Positions 915-34,242 of a DNA stretch of 64,000 nt are shown here, piece after piece. The notes below the pieces were generated by a model, which was not told the origin of the DNA, searched no databases, and saw only the letters and a program-made list of their open reading frames with translations. Source of the DNA: Thermodesulfovibrio yellowstonii DSM 11347 (GTDB lineage Bacteria; Nitrospirota; Thermodesulfovibrionia; Thermodesulfovibrionales; Thermodesulfovibrionaceae); NCBI RefSeq assembly GCF_000020985.1, contig NC_011296.1, positions 1,230,001 to 1,294,000 of the forward strand, in the 5' to 3' direction. Each line of letters begins with the position of its first letter. The stretch's first letter is position 1. The position numbers and the translations under genes were made by a program.

Positions 915-987
915 AGGCGACGGCCGGATTCGAACCGGCGAATGGCGGTTTTGCAGACCGCTCCCTTAGCCACTTGGGTACGTCGCC
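915..987 (-). tRNA. tRNA-Cys (anticodon GCA)
   Basis: Reverse-strand cloverleaf with acceptor stem GGCGACG/CGTCGCC, T-arm with GGTTCGAATCC, and an anticodon loop CTGCAAA giving GCA. The discriminator is U and CCA is not encoded. It sits 8 nt downstream of tRNA-Gly, so the pair is probably one transcript. Confidence 0.95.
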
Positions 988-24945: not shown

Positions 24946-25432
24946 ATCTGTAAATTTCCACATCAGAATCATACGGGTCAATACCTGCTTTTAGTTTAGC
25001 AATTCTTAGTTGTTCATCTACTGTATTAACACCTTCTATATCTGGAAGCAATAATCCCCTTTGCCATCCCTTTACAACAATTACTCCGTATTTTTTAGGG
25101 TCAAGTTCATCAAGACTTTTAACAGGTTCAGGTGGGCTGAGTATATCAACTGAATATTCCAATTCTTGAAGTTCCTGAGGATGAACAGGAGGAAAGCGAG
25201 GATCTTCTGTTGCTGAAGCTATAGCATTTCTAACTATTTCTGTGTATATATTTTCAGTGGTAGGAACAAATGTTCCTATACAGCCACGAAGTTGACCTTT
25301 TTTCTTAATTGAAACAAATACCCCTGCTTTTTTATTCATCTCAGGGGGAATCTTATCAGGGATTGTGGGTATTTTTCCGGTTTTTACATATTCTTCCACA
25401 GTCTTCTTAGCAAGTTCTACAAATGGATGCAT
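24923..25432 (-). CDS. AMMECR1-domain protein
   Basis: A 169-residue AMMECR1 domain protein. The hallmark LRGCIGTF is near residue 48, followed by [15 protein letters not shown] and the [15 protein letters not shown] block, and [14 protein letters not shown]. The family is found from archaea to humans and its bacterial function is unknown; it is often fused to or beside MEMO or radical SAM genes. Convergent with hflX. Confidence 0.9.
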
Positions 25433-25486
25433 AGTAAAGTATACACTAAATTATTCATACAAATCCAATAAAACATCTGGAAAAGT

Positions 25487-25516
25487 TTGACAATTTAAAC
25501 ATTTTTGTGATATATC
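25487..25516 (+). promoter_or_regulatory. Promoter for the tRNA-Gln/tRNA-Glu unit
   Basis: TTGACA (25487-25492) with an AT-rich spacer of 17-18 nt and ATATAT/TATATC (25510-25516), ending about 10 nt before tRNA-Gln. The position and consensus match a stable RNA promoter. Confidence 0.6.
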
Positions 25517-25526
25517 TTTAAAAGAT

Positions 25527-25597
25527 TGGGGAGTCGTCTAACGGCAGGACGGCAGACTCTGGATCTGCTTGTAGGGGTTCGAATCCTCTCTCCCCAG
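25527..25597 (+). tRNA. tRNA-Gln (anticodon CTG)
   Basis: Acceptor TGGGGAG/CTCCCCA with discriminator G, anticodon loop CTCTGGA giving CTG, T-arm GGGTTCGAATCCT. The U1-A72 pair is typical of bacterial tRNA-Gln. CCA is not encoded. Confidence 0.93.
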
Positions 25598-25607
25598 TAT
25601 TTTTAAA

Positions 25608-25682
25608 GGTCCCATCGTCTAGCCAGGTCTAGGACGTAGCCCTCTCAAGGCTAAAACACGGGTTCGAATCCCGTTGGGACCG
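25608..25682 (+). tRNA. tRNA-Glu (anticodon CTC)
   Basis: Acceptor GGTCCCA/TGGGACC, discriminator G, anticodon stem TAGCC/GGCTA with loop CTCTCAA giving CTC, T-arm ACGGGTTCGAATCCCGT. It lies 10 nt after tRNA-Gln. Both are C34 isoacceptors reading G-ending codons only, so the major TTG and TTC isoacceptors must be elsewhere. Confidence 0.93.
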
Positions 25683-25709
25683 TTTTAATTTAGACAATAA
25701 ATTTGACAT

Positions 25710-26639
25710 ATGAAAAAATGTTTTTATTTAACAATTATATGTTTCATATTGCTGAATTTTAATATCTCTTCTGGTGAGACATTTTCGGTCTCACAGGATA
25801 CAACAATTATTGGAAAACTCCAAACTCATATATTAAAAAACAAAGAATCACTTATAGAAATCGCAAGACATTACGATTTAGGTTATAATGAAATCGTAGA
25901 TGCCAATCCTAATTTGGATCCTTTTGTGCCCGGAGATGGAAACAAAGCAATAATTCCCACTTTCTGGATTCTACCTGATAGAGTGAACAACTTTCAGGGA
26001 ATTATCATAAATCTTTCTGAAATGAGACTTTATTATTTTCATAAAAAATCCAAGGAACAATTAGTTACAACATTTCCAATTGGTATAGGTGATGATGGAG
26101 TTGAAACTCCAATGGGTAAATTTAAAATATCTCATAAAATTGTTAATCCTCCATGGTATGTTCCAGAGTCAATAAAACAGGAAAGACCTGAACTTCCAGC
26201 AGTTGTTCCACCAGGTCCGGAAAATCCACTGGGAACACATGCAATGAGACTTTCTGGTTTAAGCTATCTGATTCATGGGACAAACAGACCATGGGCTGTT
26301 GGCAGAAAGGTTACTCATGGTTGTATAAGACTTTATCCAGAAGACATTCCAAAACTATTTGATATAGTTCCTGTTGGCACAGAAGTAATAATTGTAAGAC
26401 AACCTGTAAAGGTTGGTAGAGTCGGCAATGAGGTTTACATTGAAGTCCACAGAGATGACCAATTAAAAGACTATGATTATCTTAAAAACGCAATAGAACA
26501 GCTTGCTAAGAAAGGACTTTTAAAACATGTGGATACTTTCAAACTTTACTATGTAATAAAACAAAAAAGTGGAATTCCCACCTCTGTAAGCATCAAAAAT
26601 AAAGAGCCACAAATCCTGCCTTCGGATTCGTGGCTCTAA
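25710..26639 (+). CDS. L,D-transpeptidase (YkuD) with LysM-like N-terminus
   Basis: Exported peptidoglycan cross-linking or lipoprotein-attaching enzyme of 309 residues. A signal peptide (residues 1-22) precedes a LysM-like region (THILKNKESLIEIARHYDLG, DANPNLDPFVPG). The catalytic YkuD motif HGTNRPWAVGRKVTHGCIRL (residues about 190-209) contains the active cysteine of SHGC(I/V)R. It starts 27 nt after tRNA-Glu with no terminator between, so it may share that transcript. The adjacent convergent gene encodes an Lpp-like lipoprotein, a possible substrate. The last codons form half of a terminator stem. Confidence 0.92.
   Translation: MKKCFYLTIICFILLNFNISSGETFSVSQDTTIIGKLQTHILKNKESLIEIARHYDLGYNEIVDANPNLDPFVPGDGNKAIIPTFWILPDRVNNFQGIIINLSEMRLYYFHKKSKEQLVTTFPIGIGDDGVETPMGKFKISHKIVNPPWYVPESIKQERPELPAVVPPGPENPLGTHAMRLSGLSYLIHGTNRPWAVGRKVTHGCIRLYPEDIPKLFDIVPVGTEVIIVRQPVKVGRVGNEVYIEVHRDDQLKDYDYLKNAIEQLAKKGLLKHVDTFKLYYVIKQKSGIPTSVSIKNKEPQILPSDSWL
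26603..26637 (-). terminator. Rho-independent terminator of the lipoprotein gene, embedded in the transpeptidase 3' end
   Basis: Stem AGAGCCAC-A-AATCC (26603-26616) pairs with GGATT-C-GTGGCTCT (26624-26637) with one A.C mismatch and a 7-nt loop. On the reverse strand it is followed by TTTATTTTT, so it terminates the leftward lipoprotein transcript; rightward it precedes an A-run instead. The hairpin codes for the last residues of the transpeptidase. Confidence 0.8.
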
Positions 26640-28786: not shown

Positions 28787-29725
28787 ATGGGTAAAATATT
28801 TATTTTTTTAATTAGTTTAATGATTTTTCCCTGTCTTGTGTTTGCTCAGACATATACAGTAAAAAAAGGTGACAATATCTGGCAGATTTCAAAAAAATTT
28901 AATGTTTCAATTAGTGATATTAAAAAAGCAAATAATTTGAAAAATAATAAATTGCAAGTAGGTATGAAATTAGAAATCCCTCAAAAAAATGAAAAAATTA
29001 CAAAACAATCAAAATCAAATGAAGCAGAATATCACATTGTCAAAAAAGGCGATACACTATTCAGAATTGCAAAGAAATACAATATATCAGTAGAAGAACT
29101 GAAAAATCTTAACGGTTTAAATAGTAATAAACTTAGCAAAGGACAAAAACTTATTGTAAAAGCTCCAGAAAAACCTAAAGAAAATATCTCCATAAGAGAG
29201 AATGAAAAAGTTCCTGTTTTAGCTTCGGCAAAATTAGATATAGATGAAAAAGCAGAAGAAATAGAAGAGATTAAAGCATCAGAAGATCTTTCCCAAATGA
29301 GTCTCACAGAAAGGCTGCTTTTATTTGCAAAAAAAATGCTTCATCTCCCATATAGATTTGGTGGAAACAGTTTTAACGGACTTGATTGTTCCTTTTTTGT
29401 CAAAAAAGTATATTCAATGGTTGGTATAGAACTGCCAAGAAGTGCAAGAGAACAGTTTACAATGGGAATTCCAGTTAAGAAAGACGAACTTCAGCCAGGT
29501 GACCTTGTATTTTTCAGAACCTATGCAAAATTTCCATCGCATGTAGGAATTTATCTTGGAGACAATCTATTTATTCATGCATCAACAAGATCAAAAAAAG
29601 TAACGATTGATAGTTTAGAAGCTCCCTATTATCTGAGCAGATTTATTGGTGCAAAAAGGATTCTGGGTATTGATAAAGAAACCATTGAAAAAGCTATTGA
29701 AGAGCTTAAAAATAATCAAAGCTAA
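28787..29725 (+). CDS. Peptidoglycan endopeptidase: two LysM domains plus NlpC/P60
   Basis: Exported cell-wall hydrolase, 312 residues from ATG 28787, which has AAGGAGGTG upstream. A signal peptide (to FAQT) precedes two LysM repeats: YTVKKGDNIWQISKKFNVS and YHIVKKGDTLFRIAKKYNIS. A linker leads to an NlpC/P60 domain with the catalytic cysteine in GLDCSFFVKKVY, the His in PSHVGIYLG, and a third polar residue in FIHAST. It follows scpB closely in one unit, and ends converging (4-nt overlap) with the moeA-like gene. Confidence 0.93.
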   Translation: MGKIFIFLISLMIFPCLVFAQTYTVKKGDNIWQISKKFNVSISDIKKANNLKNNKLQVGMKLEIPQKNEKITKQSKSNEAEYHIVKKGDTLFRIAKKYNISVEELKNLNGLNSNKLSKGQKLIVKAPEKPKENISIRENEKVPVLASAKLDIDEKAEEIEEIKASEDLSQMSLTERLLLFAKKMLHLPYRFGGNSFNGLDCSFFVKKVYSMVGIELPRSAREQFTMGIPVKKDELQPGDLVFFRTYAKFPSHVGIYLGDNLFIHASTRSKKVTIDSLEAPYYLSRFIGAKRILGIDKETIEKAIEELKNNQS

Positions 29726-31653
29726 TTAGAATAAAATATTTTCCCCATATCTGTAGTATCATAACCACCGAGTTTTTCAACTGCTTTTCTAAATTCTTTG
29801 TCTTCCTGTATTACCCTTAAAACTGCTTGAATTATTTTAAGCTCAAGAAATTCATAGGGAATCAAAATATCGTATCTTTCCTTAGCTACTGGTATAAAAT
29901 CAAGATCAAGTGCCTGTGCAGCAGCAAGAATACCCAACCCTACATCAGCTCTACCTGTAAGCACAGCTGAAGCAATTCCCATGTGAGTATATTCATCTGT
30001 ATCATAGCCTTTTATCTGAGATGGTGATATTCCCAGTTCTTTTAAATGTTTATCAAGTAATAGCCGTGTTCCTGAACCTGCCTGCCTATTTATGAAAACT
30101 ACATTTTCATTTGTAAGGTCATTAAATCCTCTAATGTTTTTAGGATTTCCCTTTTTCACAATAAATCCCTGTATTCTATAAACAAGATTTATAAGAACAA
30201 CTTTTTTATCAGGCATAAGTTTTTTTATAAATGGAATATTATACTCACCAGTTACTTCATCAAGAAGATGAGTGCCTGCCATATGGGCTTCTCCTTTTTT
30301 AATTGCAACAAGACCACCCATTGAACCAACATGAGCAGAGGAAAGAGTAACGTCAGGATAACTTTTTCTTAAAAAATTGTATAAAACATCAAGCGTATTA
30401 TCATGACTACCAATGCATACCACAGTATTGTCAATTTCTTCTTTATTTCGCCATAAGTTAACTTTTACTTCCGCCCCTTGTGAAAATCCTTCAGAACCTT
30501 TGGGAATAACAATATATCCATCAGCTCTTACAACAGACATTAAAAGTCCTGCTCCTCTTCCCATGGGCGTTACTGTATATTTTCCCCCTACCCTACCTAC
30601 TTTTACTCTAACAAACTCATCAACTCCCATATTTGAAGAAATTTGTCTTGACAGTATTGCTTTAAGTTTTTCTTCCTTTTTTACAGATATACCTAAAAAA
30701 AGTTCAATTAAGGGTTTAACAAAAAGGTCAAAACATAGAAATGCTGATACAGGATATCCAGGAATTCCTAATATGGGTTTATTTTTGATAAATCCTGCAA
30801 TAAAAGGTTTACCAGGTTTTATTGCTACACCATTTATAATGACATTGCCAAGCTCATTAATGACTTTATATGTAAAATCTTCCTTTCCGTATCCAGAACC
30901 TGCATTTAAAAGCACTATATCACATTCTTTGATAGCATTTAAAATAGCATTCTTTATTTCCTTTTCTTCATCTGGAACTATTGGATAAACCTTTGGCTCT
31001 GCTATAGCCTCTTTAATCAAATTTTCTAAAACAGCTGAGTTATATTCAATCAGTTCTGGTGGTTGTGGCATTCTTTCTTTAAGTTTTTCTGGCTGAATTA
31101 ATTCTGAACCTGTAGGAATAATCCCTATAATAGGCTTCTTTCTCACCTTTATTTCAATAATTCCACTTGCTAAAATAGCTCCAATATCAACAGCTCTGAC
31201 TACATGGCTTTCGGGAATTATAAGTTCTGTTGCAACAATGTCTTCTCCAATTGGTCTTACATCATTATAGGGAGGTACAGAGGAATAAATCTCTATAAAT
31301 CCATCTCTAAGTGTTACATCCTCAACAGGGATAACAGCATCAAAGCCATCAGGGAGAGGGTCTCCTGTTTCAATCCATTGAGCATCAACACCTATTTGAA
31401 GTCTTACAGGCTCTCGTTCTGTTGCTAAGAATGTTTTTTGGGATTTAACTGCATATCCATCCATTGCAGCTGAATGGAAATAAGGAGAAGAAAATTTTGC
31501 TAAAACAGGCTCTGCTGTAATTCTTCCTAATGCGTTTTTAACTAAAATAGTTTCAGATTCAGTAGGAACAGGTATTATTTTTTTTAAGTTGTTAAAAAGT
31601 TTTTCCTTTGCTTCATCAAGTGATATAAGCTCGTGAAAAACCTTTTTCCCCAT
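29722..31653 (-). CDS. MoeA-like molybdopterin molybdenumtransferase fused to a PBP-like domain
   Basis: A 643-residue fusion. Residues 1-400 are MoeA: SPYFHSAAMDGYAVKS, VPVEDVTL, GIIPTGSELI, NAGSGYGKEDFTYKV and GIPGYPVSAFLCF for molybdate insertion into adenylated molybdopterin. Residues 410-643 are a periplasmic-binding-protein-like domain (VVCIGSHDNTLD, AHVGSMGGLVAIKKGEAHMAGTHL in outline, FINRQAGSGTRLLLDKHL) as seen in ModE/LysR-type tungstate or molybdate sensing proteins. The domain order is known in anaerobes. It overlaps fdhE at TAATG and ends an operon with a formate dehydrogenase accessory gene, so it probably serves Mo or W formate dehydrogenase. Confidence 0.88.
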   Translation of the reverse strand: MGKKVFHELISLDEAKEKLFNNLKKIIPVPTESETILVKNALGRITAEPVLAKFSSPYFHSAAMDGYAVKSQKTFLATEREPVRLQIGVDAQWIETGDPLPDGFDAVIPVEDVTLRDGFIEIYSSVPPYNDVRPIGEDIVATELIIPESHVVRAVDIGAILASGIIEIKVRKKPIIGIIPTGSELIQPEKLKERMPQPPELIEYNSAVLENLIKEAIAEPKVYPIVPDEEKEIKNAILNAIKECDIVLLNAGSGYGKEDFTYKVINELGNVIINGVAIKPGKPFIAGFIKNKPILGIPGYPVSAFLCFDLFVKPLIELFLGISVKKEEKLKAILSRQISSNMGVDEFVRVKVGRVGGKYTVTPMGRGAGLLMSVVRADGYIVIPKGSEGFSQGAEVKVNLWRNKEEIDNTVVCIGSHDNTLDVLYNFLRKSYPDVTLSSAHVGSMGGLVAIKKGEAHMAGTHLLDEVTGEYNIPFIKKLMPDKKVVLINLVYRIQGFIVKKGNPKNIRGFNDLTNENVVFINRQAGSGTRLLLDKHLKELGISPSQIKGYDTDEYTHMGIASAVLTGRADVGLGILAAAQALDLDFIPVAKERYDILIPYEFLELKIIQAVLRVIQEDKEFRKAVEKLGGYDTTDMGKIFYSN

Positions 31654-32390
31654 TACTTTATTACTCTTAACCCAATAAAATTAGGAGATCTTCTTATATA
31701 TCCTTTTTTTTGAGCTACTATGTCAAGAGGTAAACTAATCAGGTCAATCAAAAATGGATCTCTGTATTTAATATAGTGATTTTCTCTGAAACTTTTTATA
31801 TAAGTGTTACATTCAAGACAAACTTCTGCTCTTATTTCTTCATCATCAAGAAGTATTTCAATTTTACTTGAATCCTTATTAAAGCAATAAGGACATCCTA
31901 TTCTGAAAAAGCTTCCACCATGTTCACAAAGTGGACAAATCATTATTTTTTCATTATTCTCTGTAATCATAGCAAGAGATGAATCTGTTCCACAAACAGG
32001 ACATTTACCTGTATCCATAAATGATGCCTGTTGTCCTTCCTTCCTCAGAAATACAAAAAAAGGTTTACTCAATATAAAAAGCATCCTTTCCAGTTCTTCT
32101 TTTGAAAGTTCCTCACTTTGTATGGGAAGAAACCAGAGACTATCAGGCTCTTTTATTATGTCTTTGCCAGATTTTATAATTTCATCCTTTAGAAAAGATA
32201 TGGATTCAAAAGGAATATTAAAAATAGAGGAAAAATTTTTAAGAACAATATCAATCAAGGCAATATCATTGTCAAGTTTCACTCTTTCTTTTTCTTGTTT
32301 ACATTGCTCTGTTAAATTTTTTATTTTTTCATAAAGCTCAAGTGGGCTCTGTAAATGAGGCTTCTCTTTTATTATTTCTTCAATTTTCAT
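31653..32390 (-). CDS. fdhE: Formate dehydrogenase accessory protein FdhE
   Basis: A 245-residue FdhE-family protein involved in maturation of respiratory formate dehydrogenase. The C-terminal zinc/iron ribbon region has paired cysteines: CPVCGTDSSLAMI, CPLCEHGGSFFRIGCPYC and CLECNTYIKSF. These match the family rubredoxin-like folds. AGGAGG precedes the ATG at 32390. It lies between the di-haem peroxidase and the MoeA-like gene. Formate dehydrogenase itself is not in the window. Confidence 0.9.
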   Translation of the reverse strand: MKIEEIIKEKPHLQSPLELYEKIKNLTEQCKQEKERVKLDNDIALIDIVLKNFSSIFNIPFESISFLKDEIIKSGKDIIKEPDSLWFLPIQSEELSKEELERMLFILSKPFFVFLRKEGQQASFMDTGKCPVCGTDSSLAMITENNEKIMICPLCEHGGSFFRIGCPYCFNKDSSKIEILLDDEEIRAEVCLECNTYIKSFRENHYIKYRDPFLIDLISLPLDIVAQKKGYIRRSPNFIGLRVIK

Positions 32391-32412: not shown

Positions 32413-33492
32413 TTATGGAATATCAGGTGGTTTTATTTTTAAATCTTCGCCACTCAGGGCTTCAACAAGAAATGTTTTTAAAACTTTTTTCTCTTCTTCA
32501 GTCAAGTTAAGAGGTTTCAAAACTTTATTACCTTCTCCTCCACCCTTATTAAAAAAGTCTATAACTTCATCAAGACTCTTGAATATACCATTATGCATAT
32601 ATGGAGCAGTTTTTGCAACCTCTCTCAATGTAGGTGTTTTAAACGCTTTATAATCTTTTTGTTTTTTGGTTTTGAAATATCTCCCGAGGTCTTCCTTGAT
32701 ATTCATGTAGTCTGGATATTTATTTATCTTTGCTACATATCTTCTTGTAACAATAAATTTGTCTTCATTAGCATATTTTGGATTTTCAGGAACCATAAGC
32801 GCATGAAATTCCTGATCACTTAAGTAATAACCATAATGACAATCTATGCATTTTCCTTTACCTGTAAATATTTCAAGTCCTTTTTTAGCTTCAGAAGATA
32901 ATGCGTTTTTATCTCCTTTGAGGTATCTGTCAATAGGTGCATTTTTTGAAATTAGAGTTCTTTCAAAAGCAGCAATAGCCTTTGCAATCAATTTAATATT
33001 TACATCCTGCCCAAAAATCCTCTTAAATGCTTCCCTGTATTCAGGCACTATTCTAATTTCTTCCTCTACAAAATCAAGATTTTGATTCATTTCAAAAGGT
33101 GACATAATGGGAAACTCTGCCTGTTCTTCTAATGTTTTAGCTCGTCCATCCCAGAAAAGATGTTTAGCATAAGCAGAATTCATAAGAGTCGGAGCATTCC
33201 TAAAGTTTCTTGTGGTGGGATAACTTAGAGATATCTCAGAGGCATCTGTAAATGCCTTCTCAGGGTCATGACAGCTTGCACAACTTGTTGTTCCATCGCC
33301 TGAAAGTCTTCTGTCAAAAAACAGCTTTTTACCAAGTTCTATTTTTTCCTGAGTCATTGGGTTATTCTCAGGAACAGGCACCGCTGGCAAAGGCTGAATT
33401 TTCTTTTTCTTTTTTTCAGAAGCAAAGCCTTCAATATTAAAAAACAAGGCAATCAAGCATAAAAAAATTAAAATACTATTTCTTCTTAACAT
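32413..33492 (-). CDS. Di-haem cytochrome c peroxidase (MauG/CcpA family)
   Basis: Periplasmic protein of 359 residues with an N-terminal signal peptide (to about GFAS). Two c-haem sites are CASCH (followed by DPEKAFTD) near residue 76 and CIDCH near residue 216. ELGKKLFFDRRLSGDGTTSCASCH in outline and the AYMHNGIFKSLDEVIDFFNKGG block (residues about 300-325) are family hallmarks. It reduces H2O2 with periplasmic electrons. It overlaps the selenoprotein gene by 17 nt, so translation is coupled. The combination suggests a periplasmic peroxide/redox defence unit. Confidence 0.93.
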   Translation of the reverse strand: MLRRNSILIFLCLIALFFNIEGFASEKKKKKIQPLPAVPVPENNPMTQEKIELGKKLFFDRRLSGDGTTSCASCHDPEKAFTDASEISLSYPTTRNFRNAPTLMNSAYAKHLFWDGRAKTLEEQAEFPIMSPFEMNQNLDFVEEEIRIVPEYREAFKRIFGQDVNIKLIAKAIAAFERTLISKNAPIDRYLKGDKNALSSEAKKGLEIFTGKGKCIDCHYGYYLSDQEFHALMVPENPKYANEDKFIVTRRYVAKINKYPDYMNIKEDLGRYFKTKKQKDYKAFKTPTLREVAKTAPYMHNGIFKSLDEVIDFFNKGGGEGNKVLKPLNLTEEEKKVLKTFLVEALSGEDLKIKPPDIP

Positions 33493-34078
33493 TTTTAAGT
33501 TCTCTGAAAATTATCTCTTTAAAGTATTCGCTGTCTCTAACACCAAGCACTTTTATACCGTTAATATAAAAAGCCGGTGTTACATAAAGATCAAGCTCTT
33601 TTGCAAGCTTTAAATCTTTATCAATTATTGATGCACCTTCCTGATTATCTATTGCTTTTATAAATTTTTCTACGTCCATATTCAGCTTCTTTGCGTAATT
33701 TATAAGTGATTCTCTGTCAAGTCTTGGAGAGTTTTTTATTAATAAATCATGCATTTCAGTGAACTTTCCCTGTTTCCAAGCCTCTACTGCTGCTTCAGCT
33801 GCAATCCTTGAATAATCTCTATACCGATAAGGGAAAAATTTTATAACAAGCTTAACCTTGCCTTCCAGTTCTTTTACCAATCTATCTATGGTCGGACCGA
33901 CCTCCACGCAGTGTGGTCACTGATAATCAATAAATTCTATAATTGTAACAGGTGCATCCTTATTACCAATGACAGGAGAGTTTTCAATAGATAGATTATA
34001 TCTCTGGTCAGCAGCTATAGCAAAAGAATAAAAATAGAAAATAAAAAAAAGCATCACAAAAATTCTAAATTTTTTCAT
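33476..34078 (-). CDS. DsbA-like thioredoxin-fold selenoprotein (UGA read as selenocysteine at active site)
   Basis: Read from ATG 34078 the reverse strand gives a signal peptide (MKKFRIFVMLFFIFYFYSFA), then NKDAPVTIIEFIDYQ, an in-frame TGA at 33919-33917, then PHCVEVGPTIDRL and a normal DsbA-type continuation ending at 33476. The TGA stands exactly where the first cysteine of the CPHC active site is expected, so the motif is U54-P-H-C57. The total is 200 residues, standard for this fold, with cis-proline in VTPAFYING (P168). A short GTG start at 33907 would make a headless protein lacking the active site. A SECIS-like hairpin follows the UGA. The gene leads an operon with a peroxidase, fdhE and moeA-like genes. 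Sequencing error or a pseudogene cannot be excluded, but the conserved flanks and hairpin argue otherwise. Confidence 0.82.
33890..33919 (-). promoter_or_regulatory. Candidate bacterial SECIS element after the UGA
   Basis: The UGA (33919-33917) is followed by 14 nt and then a hairpin: GGUC (33902-33899), loop GGUCC (33898-33894), GACC (33893-33890). A loop beginning GGU, starting 19 nt after the UGA, fits the SelB-recognised bacterial SECIS pattern. A second small stem CCAC/GUGG (33916-33904) lies in the spacer. Confidence 0.65.
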
Positions 34079-34168: not shown

Positions 34169-34242
34169 TGCCCCCTGCAGGGATCGAACCTGCGACACCA
34201 GGTTTAGGAAACCTGTGCTCTATCCTACTGAGCTAAGGGGGC
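34169..34242 (-). tRNA. tRNA-Arg (anticodon CCT)
   Basis: Reverse-strand cloverleaf with acceptor GCCCCCT/AGGGGGC, discriminator A, D-arm GCTCAGTAGGATAGAGC, anticodon stem CAGGT/ACCTG around TTCCTAA (CCT), T-arm GCAGGTTCGATCCCTGC. It reads AGG. CCA is not encoded. Confidence 0.95.

Follow-up and report, generated by a model that had tools for sequence, protein, structure and literature searches.

A DsbA-like selenoprotein gene of Thermodesulfovibrio yellowstonii, its di-haem peroxidase neighbour and a statistical link to the switch cysteines of formate dehydrogenase

The formate dehydrogenase (FDH) FdhAB of Desulfovibrio has an allosteric surface disulfide, C845-C872, which keeps the enzyme at rest, with low activity and stable to O2; once this bond is reduced, the enzyme is active and O2-sensitive (PMC13397495, PMC11323313, PMC11134731). 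In the published switch work that we found, the bond was reduced with DTT, and that literature, which does not cover the primary paper (Oliveira 2024), names no cellular partner for it. Catalogues of selenoproteins have included DsbA-like and DsbG-like members since 2005-2006 (PMC1088965, PMC1794560), and a 2026 table contains them as well (PMC13188914); for D. vulgaris, no DsbA-like selenoprotein is given in the 2006 survey (PMC1794560). The DsbA-like 'form 1' (Sargasso Sea survey, PMC1088965; PF01323 in PMC13188914) has in common with the protein described here, as far as the accessible parts of these sources tell, the DsbA-type fold, a UxxC motif with an N-terminal selenocysteine (Sec) and a SECIS-like hairpin after the UGA, and these parts give neither a function nor an operon partner for it. 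Compared with this partial description, the present subfamily differs by its fixed UPHC motif, the lack of a Cys form in 90 loci, its peroxidase partner and its link to FDH. The DsbG-like / Rcas_1661 thioredoxin-like (seleno)lipoproteins (NF041057) have the same fold with Sec at the same place, while BdbD of Bacillus subtilis (3eu3), 3gyk, ScsC and classical DsbA share the fold, the CxxC motif and the cis-Pro loop, but differ in having Cys for Sec, general substrates and no FDH operon. DsbA-like selenoproteins as such are already known, and it is the genomic context, i.e. the peroxidase, the FDH operon and the link to C872, that is the new part. No mention of an association of DsbA-like selenoproteins with FDH operons was found in the literature searched; the primary switch paper (Oliveira 2024) is outside that literature, and the absence of a report is not established.

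The gene lies in the window, i.e. the whole stretch of 64,000 nucleotides that was analysed (Table 1). The initial annotation had described a frame that starts at ATG 34078 and has one TGA in the place of the first cysteine of a C-P-H-C motif, and this was borne out on re-reading: the frame passes through a single in-frame TGA (active-site region ...EFIDYQ-U-PHCVEVGP...), ends at a normal stop and encodes 200 residues. It had also foreseen that automated annotation would call only a short headless protein, and the plain list of open reading frames indeed shows at this locus nothing but a headless GTG frame of 143 amino acids (33907-33476). The peroxidase, fdhE-like and moeA-PBP_like genes are close-packed downstream on the same strand, the peroxidase gene overlapping the selenoprotein gene by 17 bases, and the initial annotation had suggested that the gene leads an operon with these three.

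Table 1. Predicted features of the selenoprotein locus (window coordinates).
Feature	Position	Strand	Evidence or remarks
DsbA-like selenoprotein gene	33476..34078	(-)	signal peptide, U54-P-H-C57, Thr-cisPro loop T167-P168
In-frame TGA, selenocysteine codon, first position of the CxxC motif	33917..33919	(-)	TGA in 90/90 distinct loci
SECIS-like hairpin GGUCG-GUC-CGACC, apical loop ~20 nt past the UGA	33890..33902	(-)	synonymous freezing, synonymous-permutation test, pair counts
Di-haem cytochrome c peroxidase / MauG-like gene (CASCH, CIDCH)	32413..33492	(-)	PF03150 1.7e-55
fdhE-like formate dehydrogenase accessory gene	31653..32390	(-)	PF24860; TIGR01562 (below its equivalog cut-off)
moeA-PBP_like molybdopterin biosynthesis gene	29722..31653	(-)	NF011068 763 bits, above cut-off
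tRNA-Arg(CCT)	34169..34242	(-)	same strand as the selenoprotein gene, ~90 bases upstream of its ATG

The proposal of a DsbA-like Sec oxidoreductase behind an in-frame UGA would have been refuted by a genome without Sec machinery, by a TGA that is not genuine or by a lack of conservation ahead of it; all three points were tested and none spoke against it. The genome encodes SelA (617.5 bits), SelB (385.5 bits) and SelD (376.5 bits), all above the cut-off, and contains a tRNA-SeC with the anticodon UCA. Among 90 distinct homologous loci from Nitrospirota and Desulfobacterota, codon 54 is TGA in each and every case, and neither TGC or TGT nor TAA or TAG was found at this codon in the 90 loci. Members with Cys were not excluded by design, as the fetch patterns for homologous loci included the Cys form (the best 80 of 93 loci obtained with these Cys-permitting patterns were kept). 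The motif is UPHC throughout, except in two Desulfuromonadales that have UPYC. About 60 full-length orthologues, each with an in-frame TGA, were found when 176 genomes of the order were searched; the orthologues, Desulfobacterota included (Desulfopila, Desulfofustis, Desulfoprunum, Desulfocapsa), reach 42% identity, and when aligned with DsbA/BdbD sequences U54 falls at the position of the redox-active Cys of the wider family. The region ahead of the TGA is conserved among the homologues, and amino acids are maintained with synonymous change both before and after it.

Two other readings of the TGA have to be considered. That it is a true stop, in a decayed gene or through a sequencing error, would fit the headless frame that automated calling yields, but a TGA in 90 out of 90 loci with no other stop, together with amino-acid conservation on both sides, leaves this idea virtually no credence; sequencing error is excluded because the 90 loci share the same TGA, and the pseudogene is likewise already refuted by the comparative data. 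It is also conceivable that the UGA is read as Cys by a selC*-like tRNA-Cys of the genome together with SelB, since a second selC-like tRNA with a GCA anticodon, an 8-bp acceptor stem and a long variable arm is indeed present (G000:C1:966725-966817), and tRNAs of this class have been reported in Nitrospirae (PMC7609411). However, its anticodon is GCA and not UCA, and a proper tRNA-SeC(UCA) is present along with SelA and SelD, so that we consider decoding as Cys very improbable. We conclude that the DsbA-like gene encodes a selenoprotein, a conclusion reached by comparison and not by chemistry, there being no selenium data on the protein, and that this selenoprotein is real and old. The tRNA-Cys(GCA) just mentioned (L015:1497-1589, minus strand; 93 nt, U73) scores over the tRNA-Sec cut-off and coexists with a normal tRNA-Cys (window 915-987) and with selC. 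Two further observations concern selenoproteins: SelD of this genome (G000:C1:348575-349492, L011) is itself one, with one in-frame TGA, and in another genome (G016) the selenoprotein gene is tandemly duplicated (C1:24485-25066 and 25220-25804) with a TGA in both copies.

A GGU-loop hairpin had been placed at 33902-33890, and it was confirmed exactly there as a region frozen at synonymous sites. Upstream and downstream of the TGA, there is free variation at third codon positions (mean entropy 0.97 bits, mean GC3 0.24; 12 congeners, 125 codons), whereas codons +5 to +9 (GAG GTC GGT CCG ACC) are frozen among the 12 congeners in this AT-rich gene; GC3 is 0.92-1.0 at four of these five codons, and GGT, which holds the loop, ends in T. 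The alifold consensus energy is -6.14, as opposed to -2.63 +/- 0.59 under permutation of synonymous codons (0 out of 100 as low). Three pairs are invariant and one changes on both sides (U-A to C-G), 7 of 30 sequences having C.A at that pair; only this one pair truly covaries, and the folding of single sequences is unremarkable (z ~ -1). The case for the hairpin rests on the frozen synonymous sites, and on this evidence a conserved GGU-type stem-loop is predicted just past the UGA.

The protein read through the TGA matches Thioredoxin_4 (PF13462) across the TGA with 92.4 bits (residues 32-190), in comparison to 46.6 bits for the headless frame, and DSBA (PF01323) with 60 bits, both over their cut-offs. 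Its AlphaFold2 model has a mean pLDDT of 91.8, and the nearest solved structure found by Foldseek is BdbD 3eu3 (TM 0.79/0.84), followed by 3gyk, Wolbachia DsbA2, a Salmonella periplasmic thioredoxin-like protein and ScsC. The features of the DsbA family are present, i.e. a predicted thioredoxin fold with a helical insertion, a cis-Pro and a CxxC motif in which Sec replaces the first Cys, and the periplasmic DsbA fold suggested in the initial annotation is thereby supported. The N-terminus is a plain signal peptide (...SFAIA-ADQ), and no lipobox Cys was found in the signal region of the translated frame (...FYSFAIAADQRYN); from this we infer that the product should be soluble in the periplasm. 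The best NCBIfam match is NF041057 with 72.6 bits, far below the curated cut-off of 190, and membership in the Rcas_1661 (seleno)lipoproteins was rejected on account of this score and of the missing lipobox. Among the known DsbA-like selenoproteins, the protein represents a distinct subfamily. A second, longer DsbA-like family (290-327 aa, one in-frame TGA, 33-35% identity) was also seen; its members are separate genes, perhaps of the NF041057 type (G078:C14:5107-5640, G145:C46:267-791, G027:C158:9132-9659 and G143:C1:1867619-1868134).

The neighbourhood of the gene was compared over the homologous loci. The di-haem peroxidase is the next gene downstream in 84 out of 85 loci with enough sequence. 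Outside Thermodesulfovibrio, genes of FDH lie upstream: alpha, on the same strand, in 48 out of 54 loci, beta in 52 out of 62, and the gene of a membrane subunit of the cytochrome b or NrfD type in 61 out of 72; fdhE follows downstream in 27 out of 64. The genes are usually arranged as fdhA(Sec)-fdhB-fdnI or nrfD-[selenoprotein-peroxidase]-fdhE-moeA, with fdhE and moeA not always present. In Thermodesulfovibrio itself FDH is adjacent in 0 out of 12 cases, and the selenoprotein and peroxidase genes stand apart with fdhE and moeA; the association with FDH operons and switch cysteines had escaped the initial annotation because the FDH genes of Thermodesulfovibrio lie elsewhere in the genome. Over the 176 genomes of the order, 62 have both the gene and FDH, 2 the gene only, 41 FDH only and 71 neither (Fisher p 4e-17, uncorrected for ancestry), and relatives that lack the two genes often keep the same FDH operon minus exactly these two. 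From operons and co-occurrence we infer that the selenoprotein and the di-haem peroxidase form a two-gene cassette dedicated to a Tat-exported, Sec-containing, membrane-bound FDH.

It is instructive to compare these FDHs with the D. vulgaris enzyme. The sole FDH-N type alpha gene of the genome (G000:C1:859486-862536), which has its own Sec TGA and a Tat-type start, encodes an FDH that is closest in the PDB to Desulfovibrio FdhAB and keeps the equivalents of C845 (PLECP), C872 (YCDTRY) and M405 (YAMGWTQ), as counted along an alignment with 6sdr/9qm0. Both cysteines occur in the FDHs of all carriers of the gene (60 out of 60, of which 16 come from genome-contig loci, mostly of Desulfobacterota; the carrier G057 also has the pair), and, unlike D. 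vulgaris FdhAB, the FDH operons of the carriers encode a membrane subunit of the cytochrome b or NrfD type. Membrane-bound-class FDHs from genomes without the gene have the pair in only 4 out of 16 cases (Fisher 6e-11 against carriers). Out of 407 FDH columns conserved in carriers, C872 ranks first for loss in non-carriers (lost in 12 of 16; the next-best column is lost in 5 and kept in 11), and C845 ranks fourth. C872 is replaced by R, N, G, Y, A, S or L, and the fact that the replacements differ speaks for repeated loss. Where the operon lacks just the two genes, C872 has become R in G005, N in G011, G in G012 and G019, A in G050 and Y in G049, and contrasts are also found within a genus, as between G051 (gene, Cys) and G050 (no gene, Ala), or G017 (gene, Cys) and G019 (no gene, Gly). 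In G001 (L210:1-700, contig 67) a deletion between fdnI and fdhE has left part of the selenoprotein frame fused to the 3' portion of the peroxidase frame; the FDH beside this remnant has lost both switch cysteines, and the genome shows the loss half-way.

The pair is not confined to carriers. Seventeen non-carrier FDHs keep it, 13 of one family, whose three examined operons resemble that of soluble FdhAB in having no gene for a membrane subunit, and four that are membrane-bound (G023, G030, G135, G138). Because of these 17, the gene predicts the switch and not the reverse, and other reductants must exist. G151, G137 and G021, where the pair is present and the gene was not seen, were set aside because in each the contig stops within the FDH genes or directly behind them. 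A 99-row tree offers 8 independent gene contrasts on supported branches; on average the Cys pair follows the gene in 4.8 of them, and it goes against the gene in 0. With 4 such contrasts, 2.2 concordant and 0 opposed, a more carefully built 76-row tree has too few for the sign test to be significant. Correlated change is supported by a Pagel-type likelihood test (LR 32.8, p 1e-6), in which, however, the fitted rates lie at their bounds. Additional Nitrospirota loci agree, the pair being present in every readable adjacent FDH; since most of these loci belonged to the earlier set, they were not counted as independent. Second FDH paralogues without switch cysteines (PYESP or PFETP type) occur in G016, G146, G147, G153, G154, G172 and G023; where such a genome also has the selenoprotein, the operons seen have the cassette beside the FDH copy with the cysteines. 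The FDH alpha subunits at L201 (G091) and L206 (G107), which belong to one family of the order, have Cys in place of the active-site Sec (RICHS, RLCHS).

How the selenoprotein might act on FDH can only be inferred, since the link to C872 is statistical and there is no biochemistry on the action of the selenol on the FDH disulfide. We lean, without great assurance, towards a dedicated periplasmic selenol oxidoreductase that sets, and probably re-reduces, the FDH switch; the link is genomic, the direction and the chemistry are inferred. A periplasmic DsbA-fold U-P-H-C protein would be made with the help of SelA, SelB, SelD, tRNA-Sec and the hairpin after the UGA, and its likely substrate would be the FDH surface disulfide equivalent to C845-C872, which would toggle the enzyme between rest, when it is protected from O2, and activity. 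This bond would be broken (or formed) by the reactive selenol; most probably, the protein would reduce it again after an oxidative stress, drawing electrons from a membrane relay of the CcdA type. The peroxidase would meanwhile remove H2O2 near FDH or could pass on oxidising equivalents. A reducing role is favoured because the genome contains a CcdA-type DsbD_TM protein and neither DsbB nor VKOR was found in it, although CcdA may have its role in cytochrome c maturation instead.

An oxidising role could be just as compatible with the CPHC-type motif, the BdbD-like fold and the peroxidase neighbour, and the selenoprotein might form the FDH disulfide, locking the enzyme on exposure to O2 or H2O2 with oxidising equivalents from peroxide or from the neighbouring di-haem peroxidase. 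The nearest structure, BdbD, is annotated as a disulfide bond formation protein, the C-P-H-C of the motif is shared with oxidising DsbA, whose dipeptide this is, the peroxidase is a constant neighbour, and all associations with C872 fit formation of the bond just as well; the lack of DsbB and VKOR in a genome that has CcdA, and the fact that the redox potential is usually lower with Sec than with Cys, make this direction unlikely, but not to be dismissed. A service to the di-haem peroxidase (haem attachment, activation or repair) or to the general periplasmic thiol balance, with the FDH link reflecting shared oxidative-stress physiology, appears decidedly doubtful to us: no neighbour is more constant than the peroxidase, which accompanies the gene even where FDH lies elsewhere, but such a service does not account for why C872 of FDH, and not other positions, tracks the gene, nor for the place of the gene inside FDH operons.

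Returning to the favoured reading, in which the selenoprotein acts on the FDH switch, the broader proposal would be that the cassette of selenoprotein and peroxidase is dedicated to operating, in vivo, the allosteric O2-protection disulfide of membrane-bound FDHs, and that it is gained and lost with the switch Cys across Nitrospirota and with carriers also in Desulfobacterota; on this our judgement is evenly divided. Tungsten- and molybdenum-dependent formate dehydrogenases are leading catalysts of CO2 reduction, and in Desulfovibrio FdhAB a surface disulfide decides whether the enzyme is active or O2-protected. A selenoprotein gene that tracks one of the two switch cysteines provides a concrete and testable candidate partner, and accounts for a DsbA-like selenoprotein that the calling of open reading frames cuts to a headless protein. 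If the proposal is true, one selenoenzyme would control the thiol switch of another.
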